From contig BEHT01000019.1 in NCBI GenBank assembly GCA_002898575.1, positions 1-62,637 on the forward strand: a stretch of DNA of 62,637 bases, written 5' to 3'. This stretch comes from a bacterium HR17. Lineage in GTDB: Bacteria; Armatimonadota; Fervidibacteria; Fervidibacterales; Fervidibacteraceae. Below, piece by piece: positions 615-62,637 of the stretch (positions are counted from its first letter, which is position 1; each line of letters starts with the position of its first letter). A model generated the notes under the pieces. It had not been told where the DNA came from. It saw only the letters and a list, made by a program, of their open reading frames with translations, and ran no database searches. A program made the translations under genes and the position numbers.

Positions 615-1439
615 TTAGCGCAACAATTGCAAGACCGTCTGCGGGACGGCGTTGGCTTGCGCCAGAGCAGCGACGCCCGTCTGCTGCAAGATTTGCAAGC
701 GGGTCAACTGAATGACCGCTTGCGCCATGTCCACATCGCGGATGCGGCTTTCCGCCGCCGATTGGTTCTCGTTAGCGATGTTGTTGTTGGAGACGATGCG
801 CTCCAAGCGGTTCTGGAAAGCCCCTAAGCGGGCACGCAAGTCAGTGACGAAACTGATGGCTTGGTCAATGGACACGATGGCGTTGGAGGCTGCACCCAGC
901 GTCGCCACGCTTAACCCATTCAGAGTCATCGCGGCTGTATTCACGGTAGCGATGGTGATGGCGACGACCTCGCCCGCATTGGCGCCAACTTGGAAGGTCA
1001 GCGGAGTGCTGGCAAAGGAACCGCTCAGCAACTTCTTGGTGTTGAACTGGGTCGTGTTGCCGATGTAATCCAGTTGCGCCAGCAGGTTATCCACTTCCTT
1101 TTGGATTTGCGCGCGGTCGGAGTCCGTCAGGTGATCGTTGGCGGCTTGGACTGCCAGTTCCCGCAGGCGTTGCAGGATGCTGTGGACTTCGTTGAGCGCC
1201 CCTTCCGCCGTTTGCACCAGCGAAATGCCGTGCTGGGCGTTATCGGTGGCAACTTGCAACCCGCGCACCTGCGTCCGCAGTTTCTCGGAGACCGCCAAGC
1301 CAGCGGCGTCGTCCGAGGCGCGGTTGATGCGCAACCCCGACGCCATCTTTTCCAAGACCTTGCTGAGTTCAAAGTCGGTGGCGACGAGGTTGCGGTGGAC
1401 ATTGAGCGCCGACACATTGGTGTTGATGCGCAGACCCAT
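615..1439 (-). CDS. fliC: Flagellin FliC (short)
   Basis: This is the filament subunit, secreted through the flagellar export channel. The protein is 274 residues from an ATG at 1439, preceded by AAGGAGGG; in-frame codons upstream to 1478 are not part of it. The N-terminal D0/D1 half (about 1-140) starts MGLRINTNVSALNVHR and carries LRINRASDDAAGLAV. The C-terminal D1/D0 half (about 190-274) carries NENQSAAESRIRDVDMA and ends in QLLR. The variable outer domain is reduced to about 45 residues, so the filament should be thin-walled, like other short flagellins. It is monocistronic in appearance, with a sigma-28-like promoter, a 5' hairpin and a strong terminator. It is divergent from the main flagellar operon. 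Confidence 0.97.
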   Translation of the reverse strand: MGLRINTNVSALNVHRNLVATDFELSKVLEKMASGLRINRASDDAAGLAVSEKLRTQVRGLQVATDNAQHGISLVQTAEGALNEVHSILQRLRELAVQAANDHLTDSDRAQIQKEVDNLLAQLDYIGNTTQFNTKKLLSGSFASTPLTFQVGANAGEVVAITIATVNTAAMTLNGLSVATLGAASNAIVSIDQAISFVTDLRARLGAFQNRLERIVSNNNIANENQSAAESRIRDVDMAQAVIQLTRLQILQQTGVAALAQANAVPQTVLQLLR

Positions 1440-1470
1440 CAAACATCCCTCCTTCGTGGCATGGCGTCTT

Positions 1471-1498
1471 GGACGCAAGGGCGTTCTTTCTTGCGTCC
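1471..1498 (-). other. 5' UTR hairpin of fliC mRNA
   Basis: A perfect 9-bp inverted repeat, GGACGCAAG / CTTGCGTCC, with a 10-base loop sits where the fliC transcript should begin, about 7 bases past the promoter -10 element. A hairpin at the very 5' end is a known way to slow mRNA decay. The role here is inferred. Confidence 0.6.
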
Positions 1499-1583: not shown

Positions 1584-1977
1584 CGGAGGGCGGCTCTCTG
1601 AGCCGCCGAAGAAAGCAATCGGCGCGTCAAGAGACGCGCCCTCCGAAGGTTGAAGGTTTATTCGGAGGGCGGCTCTCCTGAGCCGCTGAAGAGCAAGCGG
1701 CGTGTCCGGAGACACGCCCTCCGAGATGCAGAAGGTTTGTTCGGAGGGCGGCTCTCCTGAGCCGCCGAAGAAAGCAATCGGCGCGTCAAGAGACGCGCCC
1801 TCCGAAGGTTGAAGGTTTATTCGGAGGGCGGCTCTCCTGAGCCGCCGAAGAGCAATCGGCGCGTCAAGAGACGCGCCCTCCGAAGGTTGAAGGTTTATTC
1901 GGAGGGCGGCTCTCCTGAGCCGCCGCAAAAAAAGGCGTGAAAACCATAAGGGCGCGTCAGGAGACGCGCCCCCCGAG
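1584..1977 (+). repeat. Tandem array of five palindromic repeat units
   Basis: Five units of 78-80 bp start near 1584, 1663, 1742, 1822 and 1900. Each has outer arms cggaggg and ccctccg enclosing two hairpins. Hairpin A has arms ggcggctc / gagccgcc. Hairpin B has arms ggcgcgtc / gacgcgcc, or ggcgtgtc / gacacgcc in unit 2. A tail close to aaggttgaaggttta follows. Folded as single-stranded DNA or RNA, a unit would form a three-way junction. Unit 5 is degenerate in its middle. The array fills the gap between the divergent fliC and flgB promoters. A related array of opposite orientation is at 62243-62637. In-frame translations across the array are repeat artefacts. Confidence 0.9.
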
Positions 1978-2155: not shown

Positions 2156-2184
2156 TTGACAAGCCACCGCCGACAAGGTATGAT
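2156..2184 (+). promoter_or_regulatory. Sigma-70-type promoter of the main flagellar operon
   Basis: TTGACA (2156-2161) and TATGAT (2179-2184) are separated by exactly 17 bases, a near-perfect vegetative promoter. Transcription should begin near 2191, about 26 bases before flgB. The rest of 1978-2155 contains only a small hairpin (ctgcc / ggcag near 2024-2040) and no gene I can support. This is the only strong promoter I see for the run of genes to 30101. Confidence 0.8.
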
Positions 2185-2216: not shown

Positions 2217-2558
2217 GTGATGGCGTTGGTCGGGCTGGAGCGAGCGTTGGATGTTTTGGTCATGCGGGCGCAAGTGTTGGCAGGCAATTTAGCGAACGCC
2301 AGCACACCCGGTTACTTGCGGCGCGATGTGCCTTTTTACGAAGCGATGCGGACAGCGTTGGCAGGGCAACCGTTAAGCCGTGTCCCAACGCGGTTGGACA
2401 TGACATCGGCGGTGCGGGGCGATGGAAACAACACGACGCCTGAAAAAGAACTGGCGGCTCTTACCGAAACATCCCTGCTTTATCGGACGATTTTGCAGTT
2501 GACGGAGAAGGGCTTAGCGCAACTGCAAGCGGCGATTACGGAAGGACGGCGCGTGTGA
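2217..2558 (+). CDS. flgB: Flagellar basal-body rod protein FlgB
   Basis: FlgB is one of the proximal rod proteins linking the MS-ring/export gate to the distal rod. The protein is about 113 residues, typical for the family. The N-terminal rod motif LAGNLANASTPGYLRRDV is visible at about residues 22-39. The C-terminal helix begins near ELAALTETSLLY. The start is GTG at 2217 or ATG at 2220; AAAGGA at 2202-2207 serves either. It is the first gene of the operon, followed directly by flgC and fliE, the conserved flgBC-fliE order. Confidence 0.95.
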   Translation: MMALVGLERALDVLVMRAQVLAGNLANASTPGYLRRDVPFYEAMRTALAGQPLSRVPTRLDMTSAVRGDGNNTTPEKELAALTETSLLYRTILQLTEKGLAQLQAAITEGRRV

Positions 2559-3324: not shown

Positions 3325-4890
3325 TTGGAGCGGCTGCGGCTTTGGTGGCAAAACCTGCCGTTAGAGCGCAAACGGGTTGCGGTGGCGGTCGGCATTGCAA
3401 GCGTCTGCGGGCTTATTCTGTCAATGTCCCTGTTAGGGCGCAAAGAGGCATGGACAACGCTCTACACCCATTTGACGCCTGAGGACTTGACAGCCGCCTC
3501 GGTGGAGTTAGCGCGAGCGGGCGTAACCTACCAAACGCGCACAGAGGAAGGGACATTGATGGTGCCTAACGAGCAAGTGGCACTTGCCCGAATGGTGTTG
3601 GCGCAGGCGGGGTTGCCCAAAACGGGGGCGTTTCAAGTGAAAGGGTTTGAACTGTTGGATCAAACCTCGTTGACCGCATCGGATTTCTTGCAGCGCACGA
3701 ATTATTTGCGGGCATTGCAAGGTGAGTTGGCGCGTTCCATCGCCACCTTAGAACCGATCGCCAACGCCCGCGTTCACCTGAATGTCCCTCAACCGACGGT
3801 GTTTGAGGAGCGTCGCCAAGAGCCGACCGCTTCCGTCGTCGTTGACCTCAAACCCGGGCGTTCCCTCTCCAAAGAGCAAGCGCAGGCGATCGTCTTCCTC
3901 GTGTCACGGGCGATAGAGGGGCTGAAGCCAGAAAATGTCGTCCTTGTGGACACCAGCGGTGATGTGATTTGGGCGGATGGCAGCTCCCCCGAAGCGTTGG
4001 AAGGCGCCGGAGACTACCTGCGTCTCCGCTGGCAAGCAGAGAGGGCAATGGAGCAACGCCTGCAGAGCCTGCTGGATCGCACTTTGGGTGCAGGACGGGC
4101 GTCTGTGCAAGTCAGCGTGGAATTAGCGATGGACCGGCGCCATACGGAGAGCGAACTGTATTTGCCTGCCGAAGGCGGCACGCAAGGCGTTCCAGCCACC
4201 CATTCTGAGGTGCAGGAAACATATCAAAGTCAAGGGGCACCTATCGCTGCGGGCGCGGCAGGGGCGGCGACGAACTTGCAGATGACGCCGCCGTTGCCAG
4301 TGACTTTGCTGGGGGGCAGTTACTCCAAGACGGAGCGCAAAACGGAATATCGCGTCTCGCGGCGTGTAGAACGGGTGGAACAGCCGCCCGGCGCCGTTCG
4401 GCGGGTTTCAGTAGCGGTGCTGGTGCGGGGCACGCTGACGCCGGCGGAGCAAACGGCGCTGCAACGCGCGGTCGGCGCTGCGGTCGGTTTGGACCCGGCG
4501 CGGGGCGATGCCGTCGTTGTAGTGCCGGTTCGGACAGAGCGCCCTGCAGGCGTCCCTCGTCTGGGGCGGGGGCGCACCCCTACGGCGCCTTTTCCGTGGA
4601 TCTGGCTGGCAGCCGTTGCGCTGGGGCTGCTAGTGCCAGTAACCCTCTTCGTGGCATGGCGTCGTCGGCGCCGGGGTGCTCCCCTTGCCCCGCCTCTGTC
4701 CGAGCCGACGCCCGAAGTTGCGCCTCAGCCGGCAATCCCACCACCGCCCAGCCCATCGCCTTTAGAGCAATTGCGGCAAGTCGCTCGCGAGTCCCCGAAC
4801 CGCCTCGCGGAAGTTTTGCGTTCGTGGCTTGCGGAAGACGCTGCCAGTCAACGAACGGACGGGGGCGTTGAAGAATGGAGCAAACGGTAG
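3325..4890 (+). CDS. fliF: Flagellar MS-ring protein FliF
   Basis: FliF forms the MS-ring in the inner membrane, the first structure assembled. It is 521 residues with a TTG start at 3325; an in-frame stop lies just upstream, so no earlier start exists in this frame. One transmembrane helix is at about 18-37 and a second at about 425-445. Between them are the ring-building motifs, including the YscJ/FliF domain around DQTSLTASDFLQRTNYLRA. The cytoplasmic tail contains SPNRLAEVLRSWLAED, the FliG-binding segment. The gene overlaps fliG by 16 bases, implying coupled translation. The lack of a strong ribosome site before the TTG is unusual for this operon. Confidence 0.96.
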   Translation: MERLRLWWQNLPLERKRVAVAVGIASVCGLILSMSLLGRKEAWTTLYTHLTPEDLTAASVELARAGVTYQTRTEEGTLMVPNEQVALARMVLAQAGLPKTGAFQVKGFELLDQTSLTASDFLQRTNYLRALQGELARSIATLEPIANARVHLNVPQPTVFEERRQEPTASVVVDLKPGRSLSKEQAQAIVFLVSRAIEGLKPENVVLVDTSGDVIWADGSSPEALEGAGDYLRLRWQAERAMEQRLQSLLDRTLGAGRASVQVSVELAMDRRHTESELYLPAEGGTQGVPATHSEVQETYQSQGAPIAAGAAGAATNLQMTPPLPVTLLGGSYSKTERKTEYRVSRRVERVEQPPGAVRRVSVAVLVRGTLTPAEQTALQRAVGAAVGLDPARGDAVVVVPVRTERPAGVPRLGRGRTPTAPFPWIWLAAVALGLLVPVTLFVAWRRRRRGAPLAPPLSEPTPEVAPQPAIPPPPSPSPLEQLRQVARESPNRLAEVLRSWLAEDAASQRTDGGVEEWSKR

Positions 4891-5930
4891 AGCGCCAACG
4901 CACTACCGTGAGCAAAGTGTCCGGGTTGCGCAAAGCGGCGATTTTGCTGTCGCTGCTTTCGCCCGAGGAAGCCGCCGGCGTCCTGCGGCACTTAGAAGAG
5001 TCCGAAGTGGAGAAATTGCTGGGCGAAATGGCGCGATTGGGTACAGTAAGCGACCAAGCAATTGATGACTTGCTAAAGGAAAGCCTGCAGCGGATTGCAC
5101 AGCCGCCGCCTATCGCATCGGGCGGGTTAGCAAAAGTGCGGTCGCTGTTGGTGCAAGCTTTCGGGGTTCATCAAGGCACCGCCCTTTGGTCCCGTTTGGA
5201 AGCGCTCCTCAGCGAACCTGCTGAGGACAAGGAAGATACGGAATTGCTGGCGAAACTGGGCAGTGTTCCCCCTCAACACATCGTAGAGTTAGTGCGCAAC
5301 GAGAACCCGCAAGCGATTGCTCTGCTGTTGGGCTTACTTCCCACCGCCCACGGGGCAGCAGTGTTAGGGGAACTGACACCTGAGTTGCGGGCGGAGGTGG
5401 CGTTCCGTTTGCTCATCACGGAGCCACCACCTGAAGAAGTGCTGGAAACCCTGCGCGCTTCACTGAAAGAAGTCATCGCCCCGACGGCGCAACGCGCTGT
5501 GACCCGCTTCAACGGGTTACAAGTGCTGGTGCAAATCCTGAGCAATGTCCCCCGTGAAGTTTACCAAGAAATCTTGACAGCGCTGGAGCAACGCAACCCT
5601 GAGTTGGCGGAGCGGGTTCAGCAAGCCATGTTCACCTTTGAGGATTTGGTCAAGTTGGACGACCGTTCGCTGCAACGGGTGCTGCGCGAGGTGGATATGC
5701 GCGAATTAGCCGTGGCGCTCAAAGGCGCCAGCGAGGAGTTGAAGGAAAAAATCTTCCACAACATGTCCCAACGCGCCGCTCAAATCTTGCGGGAGGAGAT
5801 GGACTTTATGGGTCCGGTGCGGCTGCGCGATGTCACATTGGCGCAGCGTAAGGTCGTGGACATCGTGCGCCGCTTGGAAGAAGCCGGCGAAATCGCCGTG
5901 CCGCGCGGCGGGGAGGAGGTGCTCGTCTGA
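4875..5930 (+). CDS. fliG: Flagellar motor switch protein FliG
   Basis: FliG is the torque-generating switch protein that sits on FliF and interacts with MotA. It has 351 residues with N, middle and C domains. The middle-domain EHPQ motif appears as ENPQ at about 143-146 (NENPQAIALLL). The C-terminal domain has the charged torque helix around VKLDDRSLQRVLREVD and ends with VVDIVRRLEEAGEI. It overlaps fliF at its start and fliH by one base at its end (TGATG). Confidence 0.97.
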   Translation: MEQTVERQRTTVSKVSGLRKAAILLSLLSPEEAAGVLRHLEESEVEKLLGEMARLGTVSDQAIDDLLKESLQRIAQPPPIASGGLAKVRSLLVQAFGVHQGTALWSRLEALLSEPAEDKEDTELLAKLGSVPPQHIVELVRNENPQAIALLLGLLPTAHGAAVLGELTPELRAEVAFRLLITEPPPEEVLETLRASLKEVIAPTAQRAVTRFNGLQVLVQILSNVPREVYQEILTALEQRNPELAERVQQAMFTFEDLVKLDDRSLQRVLREVDMRELAVALKGASEELKEKIFHNMSQRAAQILREEMDFMGPVRLRDVTLAQRKVVDIVRRLEEAGEIAVPRGGEEVLV

Positions 5931-60759: not shown

Positions 60760-60872
60760 CCTCATCACCTCCGTGTCCGACGCAATTTTGCCGTTTGGGA
60801 CACGCTTGCTGCGGTGAAGGTTGTGCCAAGATTTTGGCGACCGGTAATGCTGTGACGGAGGTGCTCCGATGT

Positions 60873-62204
60873 ATGGAAGCGATGCTGCGGGGAACGATGC
60901 GCATCAACGAACGCGGGCATTTGGAAATCGGTGGCTGCGACTGTGTGGAACTGGCGCAAAAATTGGGGACACCGCTGTTCGTCATGGACGAAGCGCTGAT
61001 CCGGGACAACTGCCGCCGCTATAAAAACGCTTTTGCCCGGTGCTACCCAGCGGAAGTCCGCATCGCTTATGCGGCTAAAGCCTTTTTCGTCTTGGCGATG
61101 GCGAAACTGGTGGACGAAGAAGGGTTGTGGCTAGATGTGGCGTCGGGCGGCGAACTGTTTACGGCGTTGCAAGCGAAGTTTCCCCCCCAACGCATTTACC
61201 TGCACGGCAACTTTAAATCGGACGACGAATTGACGATGGCGTTGCGTCATCGGGTTGGGCGCATCGTCGTGGACAGTTTTGAAGAGTTGGAGCGGCTGAA
61301 CGAATTGGCACGGCACCACGCGACGGTCGCCGACATCCTGTTGCGCGTCACGCCGGGCATAGAAGCCCACACGCACGAGTTCATCCGCACGGGGCAGTTT
61401 GACACCAAGTTCGGTTTTTCGCTGACAGACGGTATCGCGTTGGAAGCGACCGAGCGCGCCCTTTCGTCGCCCCATTTGCGTTTGCACGGCTTTCATTGCC
61501 ACATCGGTTCGCAGGTGTTTGAGACAGAGCCCTACCGTGTCGCCACCGAACAAATGTTTGCTTTCGCCGACCAAGTGCGGCGGGCGACGGGATTTGCGAC
61601 GGCGGAACTCAACCTCGGCGGCGGGTTAGGAGTCCGCTATACGCCCGACGACGACCCGCCTGGCATTGAGACCTTCGCGGCAGCGTTGTGCGCTGCCGTG
61701 CAGGAGATGGCGCAACGCTTTCGGTTTGACTTGCCCACATTGGTGATTGAACCGGGGCGCTCTATCGTCGGCGAAGCGGGCACGACCCTCTACACCATCG
61801 GCGTCGTCAAGGCAATCCCGCAGGTGCGCACTTATGTGTCGGTGGACGGCGGGATGAGCGACAACCCGCGCCCTGCCCTTTACGGCGCCCGCTATTTCGC
61901 CCTCATCGCCAACAAAGCCGACCAACCTGCCGACAAAGTCGTGACCGTCGCAGGCAAACATTGCGAAAGCGACATCCTCATCCGCGACATCGCTCTCGCC
62001 GACCCGCAGCCGGGCGATATCCTCGCCGTCTTTACGACGGGCGCTTACCACTACAGCATGGCGAGCAACTACAACCGCTTCCCGCGCCCGGCGGTCGTTT
62101 TTGTACGGGACGGTAAAGCGCGTTTGGTCGTGCGGCGGGAAACTTGGGATGATTTGCTGCGCTGTGATGTCTGGGACGACATGGTGATATCTGGCTGGAC
62201 CTGA
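60873..62204 (+). CDS. lysA: Diaminopimelate decarboxylase
   Basis: LysA makes L-lysine from meso-diaminopimelate, using PLP. The start is ATG 60873, nine bases after GGAGGTG, giving 443 residues. In-frame codons back to 60795 have no ribosome site. Features include [18 protein letters not shown] with the PLP-binding Lys, [35 protein letters not shown] and the active-site Cys in [13 protein letters not shown]. The C-terminal [19 protein letters not shown] is standard. A weak TTGTGC-N18-TAATGC promoter at 60821-60850 may drive it. Confidence 0.96.
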
Positions 62205-62242: not shown

Positions 62243-62637
62243 CGGCGGGCGCGTCTTTTGATGCGCCGCTTGCTTTTCGGCGTCTCAGGAGAGCCGCCCT
62301 CCGAACGAACCTTCGGCGCCTCGGAGGGCGCATCTCTGATGCGCCGCTTTTGGCGGCTCAGGAGAGCCGCCCTCCGAACGAACCTTCAACATCTCGGCGG
62401 GCGCATCTCTGATGCGCCGCTTTTGGCGGCTCAGGAGAGCCGCCCTCCGAACGAACCTTCAACATCTCGGCGGGCGCATCTCTGATGCGCCGCTTTTGGC
62501 GGCTCAGGAGAGCCGCCCTCCGAACGAACCTTCAACATCTCGGCGGGCGCATCTCTGATGCGCCGCTTTTGGCGGCTCAGGAGAGCCGCCCTCCGAACGA
62601 ACCTTCGGCGCCTCGGCGGGCGCATCTCTGATGCGCC
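62243..62637 (+). repeat. Tandem palindromic repeat array (inverted relative to the first array)
   Basis: Units start near 62243, 62322, 62395, 62468, 62541 and 62614; the last is cut by the window edge. The period is 73 bp (79 for the first). Each unit has outer arms cggcggg (or cggaggg) and ccctccg. The two hairpins are ggcgcatc / gatgcgcc and ggcggctc / gagccgcc. The latter is the same hairpin A as in the first array. Read on the minus strand, the units have the same order as at 1584-1977. The array follows the lysA stop by about 40 bases and may act as its 3' end. Confidence 0.9.

Follow-up and report, generated by a model that had tools for sequence, protein, structure and literature searches.

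The window analysed here, a stretch of 62,637 nucleotides from bacterium HR17 (contig BEHT01000019.1), contains two arrays of a short palindromic repeat, the first of which sits between the divergent fliC and flgB-like genes (Table 1). Both arrays are built from one half-unit in alternating orientation, whose 24-nt consensus, GGAG + GGCG-NN-TC-NNNN-GA-NN-CGCC, consists of a tag, GGAG (minor versions GGCG and GGGG), followed by a hairpin with an 8-bp stem and a loop of 3-4 nt. Specifically, array 1 (1585-1974) is composed of ten half-units arranged as five inverted pairs with a pair spacing of 78-80 bp, and array 2 of eleven half-units with a spacing of 73 bp, cut off by the contig end. At ≤3 mismatches the window holds 15 half-unit matches, versus 0.04 expected by chance, and no Rfam family matches it at the gathering score.

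Table 1. Coordinates of the half-units and neighbouring features in the window
Feature	Position	Strand	Description
fliC, flagellin gene, left of array 1	615..1478	-	Flagellin_N, Flagellin_C
Half-unit 1	1585..1607	+	G-type (GC/GC), head GGAG, loop TCT
Half-unit 2	1621..1644	-	C-type (CG/CG), head GGAG
Half-unit 3	1664..1687	+	G-type; final C->T (ends GCT), giving G.T at stem base
Half-unit 4	1699..1722	-	C-type variant TG/CA, compensated
Half-unit 5	1743..1766	+	G-type (GC/GC)
Half-unit 6	1780..1803	-	C-type (CG/CG)
Half-unit 7	1823..1846	+	G-type (GC/GC)
Half-unit 8	1858..1881	-	C-type (CG/CG)
Half-unit 9	1901..1924	+	G-type (GC/GC)
Half-unit 10	1951..1974	-	C-type (CG/CG), head GGGG, not GGAG
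Sigma-70-like promoter, between array 1 and flgB	2156..2184	+	TTGACA-17-TATGAT
flgB-like ORF, right of array 1	2217..2558	+	Named by eye (N-terminal NLANASTPGYLRRD, fliF at 3325); no Pfam match at E≤0.001
PLP-dependent decarboxylase, lysA-like	60795..62204	+	Array 2 comes after its stop codon
Array 2	62244..62637	both	C-type on +, mostly CA/TG, loop TCT, head mostly GGCG
Array 2, minus-strand half-units		-	G-type, head GGAG, alternating with plus-strand C-type

The first-pass annotation had recognised at 1584-1977 a repeat family with a spacing of 78-80 bp, and its coordinates proved right, the ten half-units of array 1 being located there. The three versions of the second hairpin that it distinguished were also recovered, that is, GGCGCGTC/GACGCGCC, GGCGTGTC/GACACGCC (1699-1722) and GGCGCATC/GATGCGCC (array 2). 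Its hairpins A and B turn out to be a single element read in the two orientations. Because A and B are one inverted element, the pairing of the outer arms CGGAGGG/CCCTCCG, adduced there as evidence of structure, is a by-product of the inversion and does not constitute independent evidence of a junction. The three-way junction that had been proposed agrees with the predicted fold of one dimer as single-stranded DNA, which consists of two hairpins and an outer stem (-25.2 kcal/mol, z -4.9); as RNA, however, a long imperfect hairpin is predicted to be about equally stable, or slightly better (-42.3, z -5.3).

Copy number, dimer composition and genomic setting

The whole genome (3.15 Mb, 75 contigs) contains 684 half-units at ≤2 mismatches, i.e. 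roughly 700, with 0 in a reversed-pattern control. An initial loose half-unit scan gave 499 matches and was noisy, and counts were taken instead from seed-only and strict scans; the sample statistics rest on 853 kb of genome stretches. In this sample, which has 54 clusters of up to 19 half-units each, the strict scan detects 105 G-type (GC, GT) and 100 C-type (CG, CA, TG) half-units. According to the same scan, tail-to-tail dimers are always heterotypic, combining a G-type with a C-type half-unit (84/84), and head-to-head neighbours likewise always join G-type to C-type (54/54). Identical partners would form long perfect palindromes, which are unstable. The 84/84 rule offers a clean case for the question of why REP dimers avoid identical partners, a heterodimer preference that has been recorded as unexplained (PMC3733652).

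With regard to location, 34 of the 50 placeable clusters are intergenic, intergenic DNA making up 10.7% of the sample. In particular, the 54 clusters are found in tandem (24), convergent (5) and divergent (5) gaps, inside called ORFs (16, a rough count, as ORFs were called greedily) and at ends (4), and they are distributed over gap types like the background (264 tandem, 67 convergent and 81 divergent gaps), with no preference for convergent gaps seen (5/34 versus 67/412).

These figures bear on the role in transcription ending that had been suggested for the repeats, whereby the hairpins would be terminators or 3′-end stabilisers, kept for ending or protecting transcripts. Such a function would be in line with the GC-richness of the hairpins, with an excess of terminator-like calls in array 1 (8 versus 1.9 in shuffles) and with the position of array 2 directly 3′ of lysA. 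Nevertheless, we consider it very unlikely and not supported, since the calls in the array have no genuine run of T after them (tails read, for example, GATTGCTTTC), a T-tract being absent as a rule, array 1 is placed upstream of two divergent genes, and the spread of clusters over gap types, with 5/34 convergent, matches the background. In addition, termination would leave unexplained the GGAG tag, the inverted heterodimers and the flanking of RAYT genes by the repeats described below.

Pairing of the hairpin stems

The hairpin had been thought to vary only by compensatory changes. Paired changes are indeed found, but "only" is too strong a word, as three half-units of the window are incompletely paired: for example, 62244-62267 (GGCGCGTC/GATGCGCC) carries an uncompensated G.T wobble and 62279-62302 (GGCGGCTC/GAGACGCC) one mismatch. 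For an unbiased stem test, hairpins with ≥6/8 stem positions paired were chosen by the 5′ seed GGAGGGCG alone in 853 kb of genome. The variable dinucleotides turned out to be complementary in 126 of these 145 hairpins, where 43.0 would be expected if they were independent and the maximum of 2000 shuffles was 60. The complementary hairpins belong to the classes GC/GC (61), CG/CG (30), CA/TG (23), GT/AC (10), TG/CA (1) and CT/AG (1), and the set of 145 also includes the uncompensated intermediates CA/CG (8), GT/GC (4) and CG/TG (2). Moreover, a scan fixing just GGCG/CGCC and leaving the inner pairs free yields 30 kinds of hairpin in 135 copies, almost all of them paired.

The same picture emerges from 45 distinct half-units of this and related genomes, a set for which a hairpin finder picked the rows from RAYT loci and which leaves out three unpaired seed matches: over the eight-pair stem, 93.9% of cells are paired (72.1 when shuffled), double-changed cells number 69 (19.8 when shuffled), a count of sequences and not of independent events, and the covariation score, likewise counting sequences, is 0.491 (0.105 when shuffled, ≤0.078 in slid controls). 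The covariation check on collected copies had been set beforehand, with unpaired arms or a lack of further copies as the refuting outcomes; further copies with paired arms were found. The view of the first-pass annotation that the structure is kept by paired changes is supported by both the 126/145 complementary hairpins and the covariation score.

Hairpin-templated correction is known for quasi-palindromes, and most variants differ by paired transitions, as might be anticipated if stem pairing arose solely from hairpin-templated mutation, i.e. template switching, in the absence of selection. We regard this as improbable, given that other genomes stably retain G.A/A.G mismatches within this family (GGCGAATC/GATGAGCC), so that pairing is not automatically restored, and that neither the tag nor the link with RAYTs would be accounted for.

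Relationship with REP elements and RAYT genes

REPs have been described as GTAG- or CGTC-tagged, mostly from Proteobacteria. In the literature, the REP tag at the foot of the hairpin is GT[AG]G (PMC6006769, PMC3686654). The HR17 repeats share with the GTAG super-family of REP, BIME and REPIN elements (PMC2817692, PMC3733652, PMC6006769, PMC8266576) the association of a tag with a short hairpin, the high copy number, the mostly intergenic location, the inverted pairs (often heterodimers), the tandem clusters and the flanking of RAYTs in relatives; they differ in having GGAG instead of GT[AG]G and no cognate RAYT in their own assembly. In other words, of the features by which a GTAG REP is recognised, a palindrome in many copies and a mostly extragenic location are found and the GT[AG]G tag is not, and the inverted pairs and conserved-spacing clusters of BIME/REPIN organisation are found as well. 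E. coli BIMEs (Y with Z1/Z2 REPs) are similarly clustered inverted pairs of two related, unlike half-units, although there is no sequence kinship beyond the position of the tag, the tag in HR17 is GGAG, and the HR17 stems are perfect where those of E. coli are bulged. CGTC-tagged REPs (PMC3733652) are comparable in REP anatomy, in a non-GTAG tag and in the existence of families with no cognate RAYT in the genome; however, their tag and stems differ, and they flank no RAYT, whereas GGAG repeats do so in relatives. That the repeats are REP/BIME elements of a GGAG-tagged family is well supported. A GGAG tag was not found in the RAYT/REP literature searched, whose coverage was incomplete and did not include the "atypical structures" of subclass 2.6 (PMC6006769), and a literature search for the repeat sequences found nothing.

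An exact scan for GGAGGGCGNNTCTCCTGANNNGCC in 84,980 species genomes retrieves mainly Geminisphaera colitermitum TAV2, where the form is GGAGGGCGGGTCTCCTGACCCGCC, Kiritimatiellae/PVC MAGs and Armatimonadetes SKYB128; single matches in Alcanivorax, Kaistia and Methylocystis are at chance level. With a looser GGAG pattern, 20 of the 291 genomes of the phylum have at least 10 copies, HR17 having the most (400). The common form among those phylum genomes is GGAGGGCGAGGCTCCYGCCGAGCC, which has a G.A/A.G mismatch within the stem, and the 9 and 3 GGAG copies of two congeners are likewise of the mismatched form. The GGAGGGCGAGGCTCCYGCCGAGCC repeats of other Armatimonadota and of PVC, of which no description was found, share tag, frame, stem length and loop with those of HR17 and clearly belong to one family, but they keep the tandem G.A/A.G mismatch where the HR17 copies are mostly fully paired. 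As the mismatched form is common in the phylum and in the congeners, perfect stems together with very high copy number are derived in the bacterium HR17 species. At the level of single sites, an array 3′ of the orthologous lysA is absent in two congeners, in an empty-site comparison that covers the left side only because the contig ends inside array 2; for the fliC-flgB site, no FliF homologue was found in the four nearest genomes.

SKYB128, of the same order, also has GGAGGGTGGCTCTCCTGAGCCACC, which is the G-type half-unit of HR17 with one further compensated pair. Moreover, GGAGGGCGAATCTCCTGATGAGCC is letter-identical in SKYB128 (L105) and in Kiritimatiellae/PVC MAGs (L131, L134, L144, L157, L160, L166). 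This identity suggests either the transfer of a whole REPtron between phyla or a very strong constraint.

In relatives, GGAGGGCG half-units (GGAGGGYG) flank RAYT genes on one or both sides (L105, L100, L108, L227). For example, the 152-aa RAYT of SKYB128 (L105) lies amid 14 half-units and the RAYT of Geminisphaera (L227) is flanked by GGAG half-units; overall, RAYTs with such flanks occur in other Armatimonadota and in Verrucomicrobiota/Kiritimatiellae. A FastTree phylogeny was built from 109 RAYT domains, part of whose loci were found with a profile made from three GGAG RAYTs, and tags were labelled from the flanking hairpins by one rule for all tags. Most of the GGAG-flanked RAYTs fall into one clade of 43 domains (SH 98), which retains the HUH motif and comprises 32 GGAG-labelled, 11 unlabelled and 0 GT[AG]G-labelled members; its sister groups are GT[AG]G-labelled, and the labelled rows need just 5 tag changes. 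The link between tag and clade is largely one phylogenetic event. Of the 291 phylum genomes, 7 combine a GGAG RAYT with 10 or more GGAG copies (Fisher p=3e-5 for the co-occurrence).

Membership of the same transposase superfamily, and the fact that IS608 ends likewise consist of a hairpin with a 5′ tetranucleotide (PMC6006769), could point to the repeats being not REPs but the MITE-like ends of an IS200/IS605 element. This is extremely improbable, as the half-units are organised in inverted pairs and arrays, with no cargo bounded by a left and a right end, and as the flanked genes are recognised by NF047646 as REP-associated transposases and, in a profile of three clade members, match the TnpAREP structure 4er8 (E=2e-13).

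In E. coli TnpAREP, residues W94, Q95, E100, H101 and R104 lie in the GTAG-reading region (PMC6006769). At the tag-reading positions the GGAG clade largely retains W, Q, D and R, but it has Thr or Arg in place of the GTAG-contacting His101: among the 41 readable members this column is T in 29, R in 10, V in 2 and never H, while 25 RAYTs from GT[AG]G groups, the sister groups included, have H (21) or R (4) there. The Geminisphaera RAYT of L227, which falls outside the clade, also has Arg at this position (WQEDYWDRIVR), and a GTAG-labelled RAYT of the same genome (L222) has His (WQRESFDHWVR). The relation between tag and residue 101 is a correlation with few independent events. It is an even question whether GGAG REPs and their RAYTs represent a REPtron lineage of their own that spans phyla and whose guide tetranucleotide shifted from GTAG to GGAG alongside a switch from His101 to Thr/Arg. 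If so, the guide of a domesticated single-stranded DNA transposase would be readable from its protein sequence. Together with the RAYT clade that goes with it (Armatimonadota, Verrucomicrobiota/Kiritimatiellae), this third tag offers a natural specificity switch. As E. coli residues have been reported to interact with GTAG and position 101 is never His in the readable members of the GGAG clade, the choice of a REP by its RAYT becomes testable by single-residue and single-base swaps.

Two features of the Geminisphaera REPtron (L227:1351-2267) may be mentioned here: the pair of GGAG half-units encloses additional inner hairpins, and the outer stems of its dimers are homotypic, which is not the case in the HR17 genome.

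Putative mobilisation of the family in HR17

The sole full RAYT of the HR17 genome (C41:29322-29720; NF047646, 122 bits against a cut-off of 80) is flanked by GGTAGCGTCG-hairpin-CGACGG dimers of a GTAG-tagged family, and its motif, WQRGFYEHIVR, has the GTAG-type His. A profile of GGAG RAYTs finds in the assembly the C41 RAYT alone (48.6 bits) and no member of the GGAG clade, nor do GGAG half-units flank any RAYT there. The REP/BIME attribution of the first-pass annotation holds, and putative RAYT mobilisers of the kind that it envisaged exist in relatives, but none of GGAG type is present in this assembly. As to the completeness of the latter, 7 of 9 right ends of contigs of known length lie ≤160 bp from a half-unit (3.2% for random points), and the ends of C1, C2, C5, C6, C8, C9 and C19 lie in GGAG arrays. 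It follows that GGAG arrays break the assembly and that any RAYT lying amid arrays could have dropped out of it; gene content near array-bounded contig ends is probably under-reported. Consequently, the GGAG copies of HR17 may be either orphans or elements whose RAYT fell into the gaps caused by the arrays.

Taken as a whole, it is highly probable that the repeats are GGAG-tagged REPs, organised as BIME/REPIN-like inverted pairs, amplified to roughly 700 half-units and presumably mobilised by a RAYT like those of the relatives. According to the mechanism that we propose, hairpin and tag would become accessible in single-stranded DNA, such as the lagging-strand template, and a RAYT (a Y1 HUH transposase) would bind and cut them by analogy with TnpAREP, GGAG serving as guide through a tag-reading motif that accepts GGAG and not GTAG. 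Copying or relocation would then carry the element, in most cases an inverted pair, to new sites, most of them intergenic, where arrays would enlarge by tandem duplication. The folded hairpin would be the sole substrate, and stem pairing would be kept for this reason, possibly with the help of hairpin-templated repair. In HR17, amplification could be ascribed to a GGAG RAYT that is now lost or unassembled.

The main competing explanation, which we judge unlikely though less so than the others considered above, is that orphan repeats spread with no GGAG RAYT, by means of the C41 GTAG RAYT, of another enzyme, or of recombination and slippage alone. Its strength lies in the lack of any other full RAYT besides the C41 gene among those found, in the growth of arrays by tandem duplication and in the precedent of CGTC REPs, which have no dedicated transposase (PMC3733652); furthermore, 13 of the 20 genomes that reach 10 copies have no detected GGAG RAYT, and orphan families are therefore plausible. 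On the other hand, the C41 RAYT has a GTAG family of its own at its flanks and the GTAG-type His, published RAYTs pair with their own REP family (PMC6006769), and slippage alone cannot disperse 54 clusters across 853 kb.

Two genes of HR17 were considered as mobilisers and set aside. The C41 RAYT was rejected as first choice because the REP family around it is another one, tagged with GTAG: dimers GGTAGCGTCGTCCCTTGTGGACGACGG/CCGTCGGGGATAAACCCCGACGCTACC, unrelated to the GGAG family, are found on both sides of the gene (L031:972-2132; RAYT gene 1384-1908) and have few copies elsewhere in the sample. A Y1-like ORF of C45, about 3 kb from a GGAG array, is a weak RAYT match (40.9 bits) with no flanking GGAG units. 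Within this Y1-transposase-like ORF (minus strand, about 4879-5494), a third REP dimer, of GTAGGGGC type, is located at L109:5145-5235 and leaves the reading frame unbroken, much like insertions that have been reported in RAYT subclass 2.4 (PMC6006769).
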